Source of the DNA: Shewanella sp. SNU WT4
GTDB lineage: Bacteria > Pseudomonadota > Gammaproteobacteria > Enterobacterales > Shewanellaceae
Assembly: GCF_006494715.1 (NCBI RefSeq)
Contig: NZ_CP041151.1
Location: 1,302,001 to 1,366,000 of the forward strand
Length of the DNA stretch: 64,000 bases
Reading direction: 5' to 3'
The translations under genes were made by a program, and so were the position numbers. Shown piece by piece: positions 31,560-41,717 of the stretch (the first letter of the stretch is position 1; each line of letters starts with the position of its first letter). The notes under the pieces were generated by a model. That model had not been told where the DNA came from. It worked only from the letters and a program-made list of their open reading frames with translations, and searched no databases.

Positions 31560-31913
31560 ATGAACAACATCATTAAAATGCTCAACGATGAGCAAATGAA
31601 GAAAGACGTACCAGATTTCGGCGCTGGTGATACAGTAGTTGTACAGGTACGTGTTAAAGAAGGTGAAAAAGAGCGTCTGCAGGCGTTTGAAGGCGTAGTT
31701 ATCGCTAAGCGTAACCGTGGTCTGCACTCTGCATTCACCGTACGTAAGATCTCTAATGGCGAAGGCGTTGAGCGTACTTTCCAGACTCACAGCCCAGCAA
31801 TCGGAAGCATTGAAGTTAAGCGTCGTGGCCGCGTTCGTCGCGCCAAGCTGTACTATCTGCGTGATCGTTCAGGTAAATCTGCACGTATCCGTGAAAAGCT
31901 GGCTACTAAGTAA
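31560..31913 (+). CDS. rplS: 50S ribosomal protein L19
   Basis: A 117-residue L19 starting [20 protein letters not shown] and ending with the basic [18 protein letters not shown]. Last gene of the operon, followed by a terminator. Confidence 0.98.
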
Positions 31914-31957
31914 TTATTTAGTAGACCAACAAACCGACGTAAAGTGTTCGCACGAAG

Positions 31958-31981
31958 ACCCGCCCTTGAGGCGGGTTTTTG
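31958..31981 (+). terminator. Terminator after rplS
   Basis: ACCCGCC-CTTGA-GGCGGGT followed by TTTTTG, 45 bp after rplS. Confidence 0.85.
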
Positions 31982-32029
31982 TTTGTGGTGAAAAATTTTC
32001 AGTTGCTCGTGCTAACATCTTCAGGCATT

Positions 32030-32047
32030 GTAATGCTGTAGCATTAC
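32030..32047. promoter_or_regulatory. Palindrome upstream of aroF
   Basis: GTAATGCT-GT-AGCATTAC is a perfect 8-bp inverted repeat with a 2-bp centre, about 30 bp before the aroF start. It loosely recalls a TyrR box (TGTAA...TTAC) but the spacing differs from TGTAAA-N6-TTTACA. Confidence 0.3.
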
Positions 32048-32076
32048 GCAATTACAGCTTTGAATTTGGAGGCAGC

Positions 32077-33150
32077 ATGGTTGACACTAAGCTTGACAAT
32101 ATTCACATCAGCAACGAGCAGGTGCTGATCACCCCGAATCAATTAAAACTGCAATTACCGCTGACCGAGCGTCATTTAGCCTTCGTCAGTGCGGCGCGCC
32201 AAACTGTGGCCGATATAGTGCATAAGCGCGATCCTCGCCTACTGGTGATCACAGGTCCTTGTTCCATTCATGACTTAACCGCAGTTAAACACTATGCGCG
32301 CCAATTAAAAGCGCTGCAGCTTGAATTAAGCGATGAGTTTTTTATCATAATGCGGGTCTATTTTGAAAAGCCAAGAACCACAGTCGGTTGGAAAGGCTTG
32401 ATTAATGATCCCGATCGCGATGAATCATTCAATGTCGAAAAGGGCTTACGCCAAGCGCGTGAGTTTTTACTGTTTTTAGCTGAGCTGGAGTTACCTGCGG
32501 CCACCGAAGCGCTTGATCCTATCAGCCCCCAATATTTATCTGAATTAATTTCTTGGTCTGCCATTGGCGCCCGCACTACAGAATCACAAACTCACAGAGA
32601 AATGGCTTCAGGCTTGTCTATGCCAGTGGGCTTTAAAAATGGCACGGATGGCAAACTTGATGTCGCTATTAATGCACTCAAATCAGCGGCCAGCAGCCAC
32701 CGTTTTATGGGCATTAATAGTGATGGCCAAGTAGCTTTATTGCAAACCGCTGGTAACCCGGATGGCCACGTTATTTTGCGTGGTGGCCGCGAGCCCAATT
32801 ACGATGCTGCCTCGGTTAATGCTGCCGCTAACGCCTTACACGCATCGGGGCAAAGTGCACGCTTAGTGATTGATTGCAGCCATGGCAATTCCAATAAAGA
32901 CTATCGCCGCCAAGTGCCAGTGTGCCTTGATGTCATGGGGCAAATTGCTGCTGGTAATAACAGTATTATTGGGGTTATGCTCGAAAGTCATCTGCAAGCG
33001 GGCTCACAGGATGCAAGCGCGTCATCTTTGCAATATGGCGTATCTATTACTGATGCTTGCATCGATTGGCCGGCAACCGAGCAAGTGTTAAGGCTCGCGG
33101 CGGTTTTGGTTAAACCGGTATTGGCCACGCGTTTTCAGGGAGAGAATTGA
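32077..33150 (+). CDS. aroF: 3-deoxy-7-phosphoheptulonate (DAHP) synthase, AroF type
   Basis: A 357-residue type I-alpha DAHP synthase, first step of the shikimate pathway from PEP and erythrose 4-phosphate. ITGPCSIHD, the [12 protein letters not shown] loop, GFKNGTDG and [11 protein letters not shown] are intact. The ATG at 32077 has GGAGG upstream. Its coupling to tyrA (TGATG overlap) argues for the tyrosine-sensitive isoenzyme, but the feedback ligand cannot be read directly. Confidence 0.93.
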
Positions 33151-34292
33151 TGAATGAAGCGACGAGTGAGGCACTTGAATTATTACGTCAGCAAATAGAT
33201 GCCGTCGATCAAGAATTGCTGGCATTAGTTAGGCGCCGCTTAGATTTAGTGGCAAGTGTGGGCCGGGTTAAGCATCAAGCGGGTTTACCTATTTATGCGC
33301 CTGAGCGCGAGGCTAAAATGCTGGCTAAACGCCGTCAAGAAGCCAGCGAGATGCATATAGCGCCGCAGTTGATTGAAGATTTATTAAGGCGCTTAATGCG
33401 CGAATCTTACCTGAATGAAAAAGACGTAGGGTTTAAGTCGGTCAATCCAAACCTTAGCCGCGTAGTGGTGATTGGCGGCGCGGGTGCCTTGGGGCAAGTG
33501 TTTGTGCAAATGCTGCGCCTCTCTGGCTATCATGTTGATATTTTAGATGTTAATGATTGGCATAACGCTGATGCACTGCTAGATAACGTGGGCTTAGTGC
33601 TCGTGAGTGTACCCATTAGCTATACTTGCGAGCTTATCCGCGAAAAACTGACACGCTTACCAGATAACTGCGTGCTTGCCGATCTCACGTCCATTAAAGC
33701 ATCGCCTCTTGATGCCATGTTAAAGGCTCATCGCGGCCCAGTCGTTGGGCTGCACCCTATGTTTGGCCCGGATGTCGGCAGTCTCGCTAAGCAAGTGGTG
33801 GTAGTGTGCCATGGGCGTGAGCCAGAGCAATATCAATGGTTATTGCAGCAAATGACCATTTGGGGCGCGCGTATTGTGGAAGCCAATGCCACAGAGCACG
33901 ACAATGCCATGCAATTAGTGCAAGCTATGCGTCACTTTTCAACCTTTGTCTATGGCCTTAATCTGTGTAAACAACAAGCTGATATAAAACAATTATTGCT
34001 GTTTAGCTCACCAATTTATCGGCTCGAATTAGCCATGGTGGGGCGTTTATTTGCTCAAAGCCCAGAGCTTTATGCTGATATCATTTTTGCGCAATTGGGT
34101 TCTGAAGGTGTGATCGGGGACTATCTAGCTAACTATCGCCAAGCCTTTGAATTACTTAAAAACCGAGACAGAGACACCTTTGTTGAATGGTTTAAGCAAG
34201 TTGCAACTTGGTTTGGCGATTTAGCGCCGCAATTTCAATTAGAAAGTCGGCAAATGCTGCAGTCAGTTAACGATATTCACTCCAATCCTTAA
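33150..34292 (+). CDS. tyrA: Bifunctional chorismate mutase/prephenate dehydrogenase TyrA
   Basis: A 380-residue fusion: AroQ-type chorismate mutase (about residues 1-90, with [17 protein letters not shown]) and prephenate dehydrogenase ([13 protein letters not shown] nucleotide fold, then [12 protein letters not shown]). It makes 4-hydroxyphenylpyruvate for tyrosine. Overlaps the aroF stop by one base. Confidence 0.95.
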
Positions 34293-36283: not shown

Positions 36284-37507
36284 ATGAGTAATCCTTTCGC
36301 GGCGGCGTTATCGCAATTACAAGTCAGCGCGCCATCAACACCTGCTAAGTTAATCCCGCAAGCTTCGCCCGTTAGCGCGTTAGCGCATAGTTGGCAATCA
36401 ATGAAGCAAGCAGCATGGACAGCCTCAAGCATTGAGCTTGAGTGCATTGATAAAATACAGCAAACCATGAATGTCGTGAGTTTGGTGTTTCGGCCTTTGC
36501 AGCCGCAGTTATTTATCTTTAAGCCCGGGCAATTTGTCACTATTAGCGTCGCGATAGCGGGGAAGAATTACCATCGTAGTTATTCCATTTCATCATCACC
36601 GTCTGCGCCACTCACGCTGGAGTTAACCATTAAGAAGGTTGATAACGGTAAGGTGTCAAATTACCTAGTGGATGAGTTTGCCATTGGTGATTGCATTCGT
36701 GTAAGTCAGCCTCTTGGGAATTTTAATCTCATTGATATTAACGCTGATAAGTACCTATTTATCAGTGCTGGCTGCGGTATTACGCCTATGATGTCGATGG
36801 CTACATTTTTAACTGACAGCCAAGTCAGTGCTGATGTGGCCTTTGTGCACTGCGCGCAGGCACCTGATGATATTATCTTTAACGACAGATTACGCCACTG
36901 GCTAAGCCCTAAATCGCACGCGGGATTAAATAGTCAGCGCAATGATTACCAACGTAGTCTTAGCTTTGTGCTTGAACATGGGCTTGAATCTGTTAGCGAG
37001 CAAGGGATGCGCGATGATGATGGCATACATTGGGGCTATGGCCGTATTAGCCTTAAGCATTTACAAGCGGCGGTGAGTGATTATCGCGAGCGCAGCATCT
37101 TGGTATGTGGCCCAGCAGGCTTTATGCAAGCGCTGCAAAGCATGCTGCATTACGTTGGCTTTGATATGGCGCGTTTTCATCAAGAAAGCTTTATGCCAGC
37201 AACAGAATCAGCGCCAACACTGACTGCTGATGGTATTAATCCCAACCCAGTTGTAAAGCTAATGAGTCAAGATGCCAGTGTGCAGTTGCATCAAGGTGAC
37301 TTACTGCTTGATGGCATAGAATCTTTAGGCTTACCTATTATTGCCGCTTGTCGCAGCGGTGTTTGCGGCTCATGCAAGTGCAAAGTGATTGCTGGGGAAG
37401 TCGCTCAAAGTTCGACTGCGCCCTTAAGTGAGGCTGAAATCAACGATGGCCTAGTGCTTGCCTGCTCAAGCCGATTACTGACAGATGTGACTATTGCCTT
37501 AGTCTAA
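36284..37507 (+). CDS. hcr: NADH oxidoreductase Hcr
   Basis: A 407-residue reductase that feeds electrons to Hcp. An N-terminal low-complexity extension of about 50 residues precedes the FAD domain (RSYSISSSP), the NAD domain (SAGCGITPMMSMATFL, VCGPAGFMQ) and a C-terminal plant-type 2Fe-2S domain (CRSGVCGSCKCKV...LACSS). It starts 85 bp after hcp, likely one operon. Confidence 0.93.
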   Translation: MSNPFAAALSQLQVSAPSTPAKLIPQASPVSALAHSWQSMKQAAWTASSIELECIDKIQQTMNVVSLVFRPLQPQLFIFKPGQFVTISVAIAGKNYHRSYSISSSPSAPLTLELTIKKVDNGKVSNYLVDEFAIGDCIRVSQPLGNFNLIDINADKYLFISAGCGITPMMSMATFLTDSQVSADVAFVHCAQAPDDIIFNDRLRHWLSPKSHAGLNSQRNDYQRSLSFVLEHGLESVSEQGMRDDDGIHWGYGRISLKHLQAAVSDYRERSILVCGPAGFMQALQSMLHYVGFDMARFHQESFMPATESAPTLTADGINPNPVVKLMSQDASVQLHQGDLLLDGIESLGLPIIAACRSGVCGSCKCKVIAGEVAQSSTAPLSEAEINDGLVLACSSRLLTDVTIALV

Positions 37508-37646
37508 TGACAAGCTTAACTGTGATTTAAGTTATAAATTTAACTGCTGACAGGATATTGCGCTTTTAACTTCTAGAACGTATTGTTTAAGGGAGCAATG
37601 ACGCTGGTCCCGCGCCAAGGGATTGATTCCAAACAAGAGAGGCACT

Positions 37647-37976
37647 ATGTCATTAACCACCACTGAAAATGTTTTGTCTGAAGATGTCAGTCTTGGTCAT
37701 GTGTTGTATGGTTTGCAATCAGCTTTTGCGTTATTCCTAGTTCCTGTGCTTGTGGGTTTAGTGATTAATCTTGCCCAGCGCACTCCGGGGGCATTACTTA
37801 ATTCACATCTAAAATATCAACGACATAGCACCCTAGGTTTAATCGGTTTAATGACCTTAGGCTATTTGATGGCCGACGGTTGGATGAGTGTGCTCTTGTA
37901 TGCCACCGCACTTACTTGGTTTTGCCACCGCATTATTCGTGGTTGGTTGAGCTTGTTAGATGGTCAGGCGATTTAG
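37647..37976 (+). CDS. Small membrane protein downstream of hcr, unknown function
   Basis: A 109-residue protein with about three hydrophobic helices (roughly 27-45, 62-78 and 80-95). I do not recognise the family. The ATG at 37647 has GAGAGG upstream. It follows hcr after 139 bp and is closed by a strong terminator, so it may be cotranscribed with hcp-hcr or have its own promoter. No catalytic motif is visible; a conserved-looking RTPGALLNSHLKYQRHST links two helices. Confidence 0.6.
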   Translation: MSLTTTENVLSEDVSLGHVLYGLQSAFALFLVPVLVGLVINLAQRTPGALLNSHLKYQRHSTLGLIGLMTLGYLMADGWMSVLLYATALTWFCHRIIRGWLSLLDGQAI

Positions 37977-38030
37977 TTCAATCGCTAATGTTTTACCCCT
38001 CAGCTAATTCATAAATAAGCCACATTATAA

Positions 38031-38075
38031 AAAAGCGCCCAGTGTAGTGATTGCTACGCTGGGCGCTTAGTTTTT
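38031..38075. terminator. Bidirectional terminator between the hcr region and pheA
   Basis: AAGCGCCCAGTGTAG (38033-38047) pairs with CTACGCTGGGCGCTT (38054-38068), nearly 15 bp, with A-run on the left and TTTTT on the right. It can serve both converging transcripts. Confidence 0.85.
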
Positions 38076-38087
38076 AATGCTTAGTTG

Positions 38088-40103
38088 TTAGTCGTGAATA
38101 AAATGACTCACAAGTTCAGTTAAGGTGCGAGTGGGTAAATTCGCCGAGAGTATGATGGCTTCTGCCCCTAAACTCTTCGCCGCCAGAATATTGGTCTTAG
38201 CATGCTGACTATTACTGCGACTGCGGTGGATCACAGGTAAATGACTGGCACTGATCAACTGACTAATAGCTTCAAGGTCGGCGCGGCTATTGCCTTGATA
38301 ATCTTGCATACCCGCTTCAATTAAGGCTAGTTGTTGATTGCCTTGCTCCAGTAATTTATCCGCGCAGCCGAGCCAAGTCTTAATATTCGTGGCGGGATCT
38401 TTTTCTAATAACACAGGTAAGGTTTGCTGGCCTAATTGCGCAATCAAGCTGTGATTATTCATGTGCTGGCCGCTGACATAGAGTGCATCTACAAAGCGCG
38501 GCAGGGTAAGCGGCATGTGAGTCACTTCAACCACGAAGGCGATGTTTAATTGCTGGCAAATGGGCGCTATGGTATCGAGCTCGCACGTTGAGTAGATATC
38601 ATGAGTCAAGATAATCGCGCCAAAGCCATTGTTTTTAAGGCCTTGTAAACAACTGCGCCAGCCTTGATGGGGTAGGCTACTGATAAGAGCAAGCGCCAAT
38701 TTATGACTATCCCCAAGGGCATGACTGGCTAGCATTATGCTTGAACAATCAGGTTTAAAGTCGACACTTGAGCGGCTAGTCACGGCTTTGTTGTTAGCGC
38801 TGTCAGCATGAATTTCGGCTTCATTTTTAGCATAGTGAGTATCGCTTGCATGGTTGTCATAGTTAGTATCGTGTGCTTGCAGCGCTGTACTTGGCGCTGC
38901 GTCTTGAGTCTCGGCGATGGGTTTAAGTAATAACTGCTGCTGATTAAGCTCAGCGGGTTTTACTGTTTCTATAGGATAGCAGCCCAAAACCTTGATATAG
39001 CGGGTTTGGCGCTCAAGCTCTTGCAAGGCGGCATTAAGATTATCATCGGCTAAGTTAGCTTCGATATCGAGATAGAACATTTCTTCCCAAGGCGTACCAG
39101 CAATAGGGCGCGACTCTAACTTGGTCATATTGAGTTGATGCTGTTTTAGTACCAGTAGAGCATCAACTAAGGCGCCGGGCTTATGGCCGGTTGCCATAAT
39201 CAAGGTTGTTTTCGCCGGTAATTGACTGGGCACAGACACAGGTTTTCTGCCCACGACAATAAAGCGGCTTTGATTAATGCTTTGATTGGCAAGACCGGCA
39301 TCTAGTACTTCTAAGCCATAAAGCTCGCCACCTTCAGCGCTACCAATAGCGGCGAAAGTCTCATCCTTACTCTCTACCACTTGCTGCATGGCATCGGCAC
39401 TACTGGCGCAGTAATGCAGTTGCCATTGGCTATGCTGCTGCAGATATCTATTGCATTGACTCATCGGCTGAGGATGAGCGCATAACTGAGTGATATTGGC
39501 TAACTTGCTACCAGGTTTGGCTAATAAGCAGTGGCCGACCTCGATAGTGATTTCACCTATGATGGATAAGCGGGTGTGTTGCAGTAAGTCATAGACTTCA
39601 TTGATAGAACCCGAAGAGGTGTTTTCTATGGGTAAAAATCCATAATCAGCGTGGCCTTTTTCGACGGCTGCGATTATATCATCAAAATTTTGGCAGCCCA
39701 TTTCGAGCATGCTCATCTGGCGGCGCTGACAGTAGCGACTGGCGGCAATATGCGAGTAAGAGCCACGCGCGCCTAAATAGGCAATGCAAAATTGCTGAGT
39801 TTTATCCTGAGGATTGGCAATATTTTGCAGGTAAGCCTGCTGGCTGAGTACTGAGTCTTCAATAATGGCTTGATATAAATTAATCACAAAATGACTATCA
39901 AGGCCTTGCTCACGCCCTTGGGCGACTAAGCGCGATAACAGCTGCTTTTCACGCTCTAAATCTCTGATGGGGCGAACATCCACGGCTTTACTGCGAGCCA
40001 CCTCAATACTGAGTTCACGCCTTTTGGCTAACAACTTTAGCAAGTCTGCATCTAGGCTGCTGATAGCTGTGCGGATCGTATCTAATGGCAGGGGTTTATC
40101 CAT
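38088..40103 (-). CDS. pheA: PheA: chorismate mutase/prephenate dehydratase with extra DAHP synthase-like domain
   Basis: A 671-residue protein, almost 290 longer than E. coli PheA. Order: AroQ chorismate mutase (1-90), prephenate dehydratase (about 104-290, YLGARGSYSHIA and the SRF motif at 279-281), ACT phenylalanine-sensing domain (about 298-375, ESRP at 330-333), a polar linker (about 380-448), then a C-terminal domain of about 220 residues. That last part resembles the second half of a type I-beta DAHP synthase (VVEVTH, LYVSGQHMNNHSLIAQLG, LPVLLEKD, EQGNQQLALIEAG, LAAKSLGAEAIIL), but the GPCS, KRG, ERG and DPSH catalytic motifs are lost. It is probably non-catalytic. Confidence 0.93.
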   Translation of the reverse strand: MDKPLPLDTIRTAISSLDADLLKLLAKRRELSIEVARSKAVDVRPIRDLEREKQLLSRLVAQGREQGLDSHFVINLYQAIIEDSVLSQQAYLQNIANPQDKTQQFCIAYLGARGSYSHIAASRYCQRRQMSMLEMGCQNFDDIIAAVEKGHADYGFLPIENTSSGSINEVYDLLQHTRLSIIGEITIEVGHCLLAKPGSKLANITQLCAHPQPMSQCNRYLQQHSQWQLHYCASSADAMQQVVESKDETFAAIGSAEGGELYGLEVLDAGLANQSINQSRFIVVGRKPVSVPSQLPAKTTLIMATGHKPGALVDALLVLKQHQLNMTKLESRPIAGTPWEEMFYLDIEANLADDNLNAALQELERQTRYIKVLGCYPIETVKPAELNQQQLLLKPIAETQDAAPSTALQAHDTNYDNHASDTHYAKNEAEIHADSANNKAVTSRSSVDFKPDCSSIMLASHALGDSHKLALALISSLPHQGWRSCLQGLKNNGFGAIILTHDIYSTCELDTIAPICQQLNIAFVVEVTHMPLTLPRFVDALYVSGQHMNNHSLIAQLGQQTLPVLLEKDPATNIKTWLGCADKLLEQGNQQLALIEAGMQDYQGNSRADLEAISQLISASHLPVIHRSRSNSQHAKTNILAAKSLGAEAIILSANLPTRTLTELVSHFIHD

Positions 40104-40258
40104 GGTGTAATCTCATCAGGAGGTCGAATCAATAACTTACCGCAGTTGGTGCAAGAGTAGTAAGTAATCGCTGTGATTAGTTTAAGTATCAGCTTGAAAA
40201 ACTACGGCTAGCAGGCATAAGTGTCAATCAAAAATGTGGTCAGCTAATTGTTTTCCAT

Positions 40259-40288
40259 AAAAAAAGCGCACTAAGTGCGCTTTTTTTT
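40259..40288. terminator. Bidirectional terminator between raiA and pheA
   Basis: GCGCAC-TAA-GTGCGC flanked by seven A on the left and eight T on the right. On the minus strand it ends raiA transcription before pheA. Confidence 0.85.
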
Positions 40289-40302
40289 AGAAGTGATGCT
40301 AC

Positions 40303-40689
40303 TTATGCTTTTTCAGCACCCTCGTAGTCATAGATTTCTTCGAAATCATCATCAAGAATGTCAGTCTCATCAAAGGCGTCTTTGTGATCCGCTTTACCTG
40401 AGTTTCTTAAAGCTTCAGGCTTATGAGTTAAGCGATTTAACTGTTTCTCCAGTTTTTGCCCCATGGCATTAATGGCTGTGTATAAATTTTCGTGGGAAGC
40501 CTGAGCAAACAATTCTCCTTGAGGCAATTTAATCGATGCTTCAATTTTAAAGAGCGGCTTTTCCTCGGTGATGATCACATGGGGGTTAATCATAGTAATG
40601 TCGTGGCGTTCGAGTTTAGCTAAACGGCTTTCAACTCTTTCGCGAATGGGAGCGGTGACTTCAAGGTGCTTACTGGTGATTTTTAGCAT
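40303..40689 (-). CDS. raiA: Ribosome hibernation/inactivation factor RaiA (YfiA)
   Basis: A 128-residue HPF/YfiA-family protein that binds the 30S decoding centre and stops translation in stationary phase or stress. The fold signature is seen in MLKITSKHLEVTAPIRERVE and SHENLYTAINAMGQKLEKQL. The acidic C-terminal tail (about 35 residues, DETDILDDDFEEIYDYEG) is typical of RaiA rather than short HPF. In E. coli raiA also neighbours pheA. A CRP-type site lies upstream. Confidence 0.88.
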   Translation of the reverse strand: MLKITSKHLEVTAPIRERVESRLAKLERHDITMINPHVIITEEKPLFKIEASIKLPQGELFAQASHENLYTAINAMGQKLEKQLNRLTHKPEALRNSGKADHKDAFDETDILDDDFEEIYDYEGAEKA

Positions 40690-41051
40690 ATATTGAACCT
40701 TATTTTGTTTCCCTTGAGATCAGACTAGCAATCTCTCACGAGAAAGTCGTGATCTAAATCACGCTTTTTGCGCTATTTAAGTTCGATTGCTGACAATTTG
40801 ACCCAACGTGCAAAATCGATTAAAAAGTGGTGAATTTTGATTGCAACTGCGCCAGAGAGGCGCCATATTTGATGGGATTAGCTAAGGCTTAACCTCAGTA
40901 TTTTCGTCATTTCTCTGCGTAAAAAATTCCAACATCCCCTCTATTTAGTGGCCGTTGATGGTAATTCATCGGCGGTTAGCGACTAAGGTTTGGTTCTGTT
41001 AACAATAATCGTTATCATAGCTGTGATTTAATTGCTCACTTGGAGGTGACA
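40690..41051. other. 362-bp divergent region between raiA and cytochrome b gene
   Basis: No coding frame is visible. It holds the raiA promoter with a CRP-type palindrome (40748-40763) and the promoter of the cytochrome b gene. The remainder shows nothing I can assign. Confidence 0.6.
40748..40763 (-). promoter_or_regulatory. CRP site upstream of raiA
   Basis: CGTGATCTAAATCACG is a near-perfect palindrome fitting the Shewanella CRP motif TGTGATCTAGATCACA. Its centre is about 66 bp before the raiA start. CRP activates raiA in E. coli. Confidence 0.6.
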
Positions 41052-41717
41052 GTGGCAACTTGCATAAAGGTATGGGATAAACCAACTCGACTGTTTCACT
41101 GGCTGACGATTGGCCTGTTAGCAAGCTTATGGTGGACGGCTGACCAAGCGCTGATGGATTGGCATCAAGTGTTAGCCTACAGCTTAATGGTGTTAGTGGT
41201 ATTTCGAATTATTTGGGGTTGCTTTGGCAGTGAAACCTCGCGTTTCAGCCATTTTGTAAAATCGCCTATACGGGTGATGAACTATAGCCGCCAAATATTA
41301 ACCAGCGGTATCAAGCCTCACCTTGGTCATAATCCACTGGGTGGGTACATGGTGATAGGTATCTTGACCTTATTAACCATTCAATTAGCGACGGGTTTAT
41401 TTGCATCCGATGAAGTGTTCACTGAAGGTCCTTTATATGCCAGTGTCTCTGCGCAAACGGCTTCTTGGCTCACATGGCTACATAAGTGGAACTTTAACCT
41501 CATTCTGGCCTGTTCGGCCGTGCATGTCTTAGCGGTTGGCATTCATCGTTTAAAGGGCGACGCCTTGATAGGCGCTATGATCACTGGCTCAAGACAATGG
41601 CATGATAAGCAGCCACATTTGCAGTTTAAATCGAGCTGGCTGGCATGGGGATTAATCATCTTACTGGCAGTGCCGATTGGCTATGGGCTCATTTGGCCTG
41701 TGGTTGAATGGATGTAG
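41052..41717 (+). CDS. Di-heme cytochrome b, cytochrome b561/hydrogenase type
   Basis: A 221-residue membrane protein with four or five helices. It starts with the family motif KVWDKPTRLFHWL and has further histidines in DWHQVLAYS, HKWNFNL and AVHVLAVGIHR that would ligate two b hemes. This is the cytochrome b561/Ni-Fe hydrogenase cytochrome b group that links a periplasmic donor to the quinone pool. The GTG at 41052 has GGAGGTG just upstream. It converges on a cytochrome c' gene, a pairing often seen; a functional link is inferred. Confidence 0.85.
   Translation: MATCIKVWDKPTRLFHWLTIGLLASLWWTADQALMDWHQVLAYSLMVLVVFRIIWGCFGSETSRFSHFVKSPIRVMNYSRQILTSGIKPHLGHNPLGGYMVIGILTLLTIQLATGLFASDEVFTEGPLYASVSAQTASWLTWLHKWNFNLILACSAVHVLAVGIHRLKGDALIGAMITGSRQWHDKQPHLQFKSSWLAWGLIILLAVPIGYGLIWPVVEWM

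Follow-up and report, generated by a model that had tools for sequence, protein, structure and literature searches.

In a 64,000-nucleotide stretch of the Shewanella sp. SNU WT4 genome (NZ_CP041151.1, positions 1,302,001 to 1,366,000; hereafter the window), open reading frame calling and Pfam matches identified a pheA gene (38088..40103, minus strand; 671 amino acids) that encodes chorismate mutase (CM), prephenate dehydratase (PDT) and ACT domains, a disordered linker and a barrel resembling a 3-deoxy-D-arabino-heptulosonate 7-phosphate (DAHP) synthase (DAHPS) of type I-beta, in that order. Our main proposal, to which we give about an even chance, is that the barrel (residues 440-671; 38091..38786, minus strand; profiles and predicted structure) is a pseudoenzyme, i.e. 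the relic of a trifunctional PheA, retained in a non-catalytic, structural or allosteric role on which PheA depends. Direct support comes from the homology of the barrel, its predicted fold, the loss of its catalytic residues, its retention throughout the genus, purifying selection and the existence of fused relatives with intact motifs.

The preliminary description of the sequence had proposed that a degenerate DAHPS-like domain is fused to PheA and that its catalytic motifs are lost, and had suggested a profile search and a structure prediction of the C-terminal domain; profile, predicted structure and residue counts all agreed with it. The barrel scored 30.4 against Pfam PF00793, above the gathering score of 25.5, and stayed far under the cut-offs of NCBIfam DAHPS models (58.7 versus 335 and 58.5 versus 267.75). 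The domain was predicted to fold as a (beta/alpha)8 barrel with an N-terminal hairpin, and type I-beta DAHPS were its closest structures. The model of the whole window PheA had a predicted template modelling score (pTM) of 0.83, which hints at a possibly fixed placement of the domains. In fold and sequence, the window barrel is homologous to the type I-beta DAHP synthases of T. maritima, P. furiosus, Geobacillus and Listeria; unlike these enzymes, it lacks all ten phosphoenolpyruvate (PEP) or metal residues checked as well as the loop KPRTSPYSFQG. P0003 from Shewanella sp. NIFS-20-20 is 70% identical to the window domain.

The ten positions, which we take to be the PEP and metal ligands of DAHP synthases, were scored in 128 sequences from the genus and in 107 intact trifunctional proteins. 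The latter were selected by length and by the motifs GPC, KRG, CERG and DPSH, so that intactness at these positions follows from the selection; GARN, KPR and both acidic metal ligands lie outside the selection motifs. None of the ten residues was kept in 102 of the genus sequences, one was kept in 25 and two in 1; the window sequence keeps 0/10. The metal ligands C, H, E and D, which in the window are S, a gap, S and a gap, are kept in 0, 2, 3 and 22 of the 128 sequences, and five PEP-site positions (two in KPR and those in GARN, KRG and ERG) are each kept in 0/128 genus sequences versus 107/107 intact homologues. In the window (all minus strand), deletion of KPRTSPYSFQG in the beta2-alpha2 loop (residues 499-505; 38589..38609) leaves both KPR positions gapped, as they are in 128/128 genus sequences, with K and R present in 107/107 intact homologues. 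GQHMNN replaces GARNMQN (residues 545-550; 38454..38471), with loss of the PEP arginine and retention of M548 and N550. Moreover, EKD replaces KRG (residues 567-569; 38397..38405; genus consensus ERN), EAG replaces ERG (residues 596-598; 38310..38318; genus consensus E/D-S/A-G), and RSRS replaces DPSH (residues 627-630; 38214..38225; genus consensus N-P/T-S/C-Y). Judged from the aligned sequences, the replacements across the genus are non-random. The R of ERG is S or A in 127/128 sequences, and the R of the ERN consensus is present in 127/129.

From these replacements and the model, we infer that the window-type barrel is catalytically dead as a DAHPS. The preliminary description had also suggested that the domain could sense a pathway intermediate. 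Binding of a PEP-type ligand is unlikely, because a conserved E stands in place of the PEP-binding K and the KPR loop is missing; a different ligand could be bound, because part of the active face shows a new pattern of conservation (ERN..AS, N627). In that case, the barrel would be an allosteric sensor for PheA that binds another small molecule at a rebuilt site comprising ERN..AS, E/D-S/A-G and N627. The near-fixation of the new residues (K567 to E in 126/128, D627 to N in 123/128 and G569 to N in 119/129) fits such a sensor, as does the finding that the fused proteins L046, L047, L049 and L050 of family f9 share the changes of K to E, R to S/A and D to N with Shewanella. However, the f9 proteins L054 and L059 retain the R of ERG, the site has changed again in the two sequences of the window lineage (EKD, RSRS), and the loss of conservation is greatest in the loops of the active face, with a conservation ratio relative to intact homologues of 0.68 for the former active-site face and 0.94 for the opposite face with its GNQQ, HLP and GF residues. 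We consider a repurposed pocket unlikely. A new catalytic activity of the barrel is very improbable: a barrel that is predicted to fold and has conserved polar residues at its active face would allow for it, but there is no recognisable conserved metal or catalytic set and conservation is lower on the active face than on the opposite one.

The domain was matched in 129/129 genomes of the genus and was in frame in all of them, with 180 to 249 residues remaining beyond position 453. The sole frame break, in G074 (locus L016), lies upstream of the barrel in the PDT part of pheA and is possibly an assembly error; L016 was excluded from later counts, hence n=128. We estimated omega by the Nei-Gojobori method in 119 species pairs, chosen for a core dS of 0.1-1.0, drawn from 81 species and not independent of one another. 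Omega was 0.075 for the barrel, 0.024 for CM, 0.022 for PDT, 0.009 for ACT and 0.122 for the linker (residues 388-450). We conclude that purifying selection on the barrel is real. It is distinctly weaker than that acting on the enzyme parts, and exceeds that on the linker only moderately.

Song et al. 2005 (PMC1173090) describe this domain in the equivalent place in one species, call it a pseudogene and give its origin as unknown. Here, by contrast, the domain is present in 129/129 genomes of the genus, under purifying selection, and in other families of the order, and it has fused relatives with intact motifs. We rejected the pseudogene reading for Shewanella on the basis of the omega of 0.075, the frame intact in 129/129 genomes and the location of the only frame break outside the barrel. 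More broadly, the barrel could be a passenger on its way out, a functionless leftover of a fused enzyme and as such the 'pseudogene' of Song et al. The tree of PheA cores requires no fewer than 5 switches between intact and degenerate barrels, some relatives are far more decayed, and a PDT frame of more than 600 amino acids was found in just 32/148 genomes of the order, all of which would be expected of a passenger. Against it stand the intact frame throughout the genus, an omega well below 1 and the barrel still predicted for the decayed relative L073, and we regard it as improbable, somewhat more so than the repurposed pocket.

A search with the genus alignment as query in 394 genomes of the order (E <= 0.001) gave matches in 181 genomes, 30 of them in the genus; among these are I-beta DAHP synthases that stand alone, as well as weak hits to frames of ~290 amino acids. 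We retrieved 38 fused loci outside the genus, one of them truncated by a contig end. All motifs are intact in six (L056, L057, L058, L060, L062 and L063), of which L057 and L058 pass the curated DAHPS cut-off (441.6 and 422.5 versus 335), and the remainder are partly or wholly degraded. Most f9 fused proteins carry a LERN/LERS-type site. In genus g26 of family f25 (L070, L072-L082) the barrel is nearly unrecognisable by motif. In genus g35 of the same family, the PheA frames of five genomes are 393-397 amino acids long and lack the barrel. In family f12, the PDT match of the fused PheA proteins L064, L065 and L066 (G183, G164 and G139) is weak (E ~1e-35) and begins at profile position 18-20, and each genome also encodes PDT in another, stand-alone frame of 289-298 amino acids; the PDT part of these fusions may also be degenerating. 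Four long PheA frames (520-769 amino acids) from the class outside the order were dismissed, since by eye their extra length is an unrelated upstream frame and no barrel is present.

When proteins were searched for matches to the L057 barrel, with scoring limited to 8000 proteins, 113 of the 120 matches listed also carry PDT, and 107 of the 120 pass a filter for length and intact motifs. Sources among the listed matches are Aliikangiella, Kangiellaceae, Melioribacteraceae, Ignavibacteriales, Planctomycetota, Bdellovibrionales and Dadabacteria, including several metagenome bins. Several listed trifunctional proteins are annotated 'bifunctional DAHPS/chorismate mutase' or 'chorismate mutase/prephenate dehydratase', which hides one activity. 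The CM-PDT-ACT-DAHPS fusions of Aliikangiella, Melioribacteraceae and others have the same domain order as window PheA and are the best candidate for the ancestral form; their motifs suggest that they are active as DAHPS.

In the first barrel tree, which contained the window sequence, Shewanella fell on the side of the fused proteins with support 99/99. Midpoint rooting and long branches had placed Shewanella at the root of this tree, which was rebuilt without long rows, the window sequence among them. In the rebuilt tree, Shewanella was again on the fused side (97/97) and adjoined the f9 fused proteins (99/99); grouping of the Shewanella barrel with stand-alone enzymes was not rejected (approximately unbiased test, p 0.097). 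Together, the trees disfavour the view that the barrel arose from a stand-alone I-beta DAHPS within this order. P0006 is a PDT-ACT-DAHPS fusion without CM. Because its DAHPS groups with stand-alone enzymes and with the DAHPS-first fusions P0004/P0005, fusion of PDT and DAHPS may have happened more than once.

In PheA core trees, a 100/100 branch sets 20 sampled PheA from the class outside the order and 2 from the order apart from trifunctional, degenerate and enteric PheA, E. coli PheA among them. E. coli PheA, the P-protein with CM, PDT and ACT, is homologous to the corresponding part of window PheA over ~385 residues (PRK10622) and differs from it in having 386 amino acids and no barrel. It is nested among fused PheA, not significantly, and its descent from a trifunctional ancestor is favoured and not proved, because constraining all barrel-bearing PheA cores to one clade was 25 log units worse and yet not rejected (p 0.078). 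Parsimony on the core tree gave a minimum of 5 changes in barrel state, intact or degenerate (19 rows each), and 4 between barrel and no barrel. It is possible, though we hold it to be less probable than our main proposal, that the enteric P-protein is the remnant of a trifunctional enzyme, which catalysed the first step of the aromatic pathway and both steps of the phenylalanine branch in a single chain, and that Shewanella is a halfway house, in which a new conserved site has replaced that of the first step and CM-PDT depends on the dead barrel as an allosteric part.

In the sequence of events that we propose, an ancestral PheA would have been trifunctional (CM, PDT, ACT and type I-beta DAHPS) and would have lost the DAHPS active site in the Shewanella line by replacement of metal ligands and PEP residues and by deletion of the KPR loop. 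The DAHPS step would have been taken by the three other DAHP synthases of the genome. The barrel, now putatively a structural or allosteric part without catalysis, would have been kept because the rest of PheA came to need it, either to assemble or to communicate between domains. On this view, the activity of PheA, its oligomerisation or its feedback by Phe would depend on the barrel. For DAH7PS-CM chimeras of P. gingivalis and P. nigrescens and for the DAHPS-CM complex of M. tuberculosis, PMC12202928, PMC10520331 and PMC4281200 describe physical coupling and functional interdependence; both partners are active there and no PDT is involved, unlike in window PheA. Alternatively, as the preliminary description had suggested, the barrel could be a docking module for free DAHP synthases (AroF/AroG) that couples the first and last steps. 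Other DAHP synthases are present in the genome, and the dimer interface of I-beta barrels is conserved (PMC12202928), so that an inactive barrel might still associate with an active one through an inherited surface. However, the three free enzymes are all of the type I-alpha aroFGH family, no stand-alone I-beta DAHPS frame was found in this genome, and isolated P. gingivalis DAH7PS barrels are monomeric. We judge docking highly unlikely.

Several observations weigh against dependence of PheA on the barrel. By omega, the constraint on the barrel is just ~1.6x that on the linker and 3-8x below that on CM, PDT and ACT, and mean pairwise identity is 44.9% in the barrel versus 41.5% in the linker. 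The barrel decays much further in other families of the order, and E. coli PheA does without it. Moreover, the alignments behind both structure models (window PheA and L073) included intact relatives, which possibly favoured prediction of a barrel, and the L073 model had a pTM of 0.55. Apart from this, the window sequence itself is divergent: its mean identity to other genus sequences is 27% in the barrel and 69-77% in the enzyme parts, and relative to its nearest relative pN is 0.20 in the barrel versus 0.05-0.08 in CM, PDT and ACT, a pair for which omega is not computable because synonymous sites are saturated.

While the bare existence of the domain is already in print (Song et al. 2005), searches of open-licence PubMed Central papers brought up neither its conservation as a pseudoenzyme nor its trifunctional relatives nor the graded series. 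Beyond Song et al., no title or opening of an abstract listed in those searches pointed to the domain, and none to a CM-PDT-DAHPS trifunctional enzyme, either of which may exist in print. The graded natural series runs from fusions with intact motifs through partly broken ones, a pseudoenzyme conserved genus-wide and strongly decayed barrels to full absence, and makes the question of why a dead enzyme is kept testable by deletion in a laboratory strain. In addition, the domain that had no explanation in 2005 gains a candidate origin, and E. coli PheA, a textbook enzyme, may turn out to be a reduced trifunctional one.

The remainder of window PheA (minus strand) comprises the CM domain (residues 10-89; 39837..40076; PF01817, E 2.2e-18), the PDT domain (residues 107-287; 39243..39785; PF00800, E 7.7e-59), an ACT match (residues 308-364; 39012..39182; PF01842, 16.7 bits) and the linker (residues 396-438; 38790..38918; predicted local distance difference test under 50). 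The ACT match misses its cut-off of 27; the ACT fold is backed by solved prephenate dehydratases that align over residues 102-383, so that CM and PDT above cut-off and a predicted folded ACT occur in the order of a CM-PDT P-protein. PheA passes TIGR01797 (90.6 versus 73.7) and PRK11898 (229 versus 219), and matches PRK10622 over residues 5-385 with 519.8 bits, below the cut-off of 577. A search of phage records gave 25 records, and the 5 matches listed all lie inside residues 5-385 of window PheA, with none covering 80%. An Rfam scan of 37500-41100 gave zero matches at E <= 0.1, and no phe leader was found there. Upstream of pheA lies a raiA/HPF-family gene (40303..40689, minus strand; TIGR00741, 78.8 bits, cut-off 40.9), an arrangement equivalent to the raiA-pheL-pheA order of E. 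coli. Finally, tyrA, encoding CM-prephenate dehydrogenase (33147..34292, plus strand; Pfam), is adjoined by a gene for an intact type I-alpha DAHPS of the AroF/G/H family (31717..33150, plus strand; TIGR00034, 495 bits). This frame has 477 amino acids from a GTG and aroFGH models match only from ~residue 123; its true start is probably further in.
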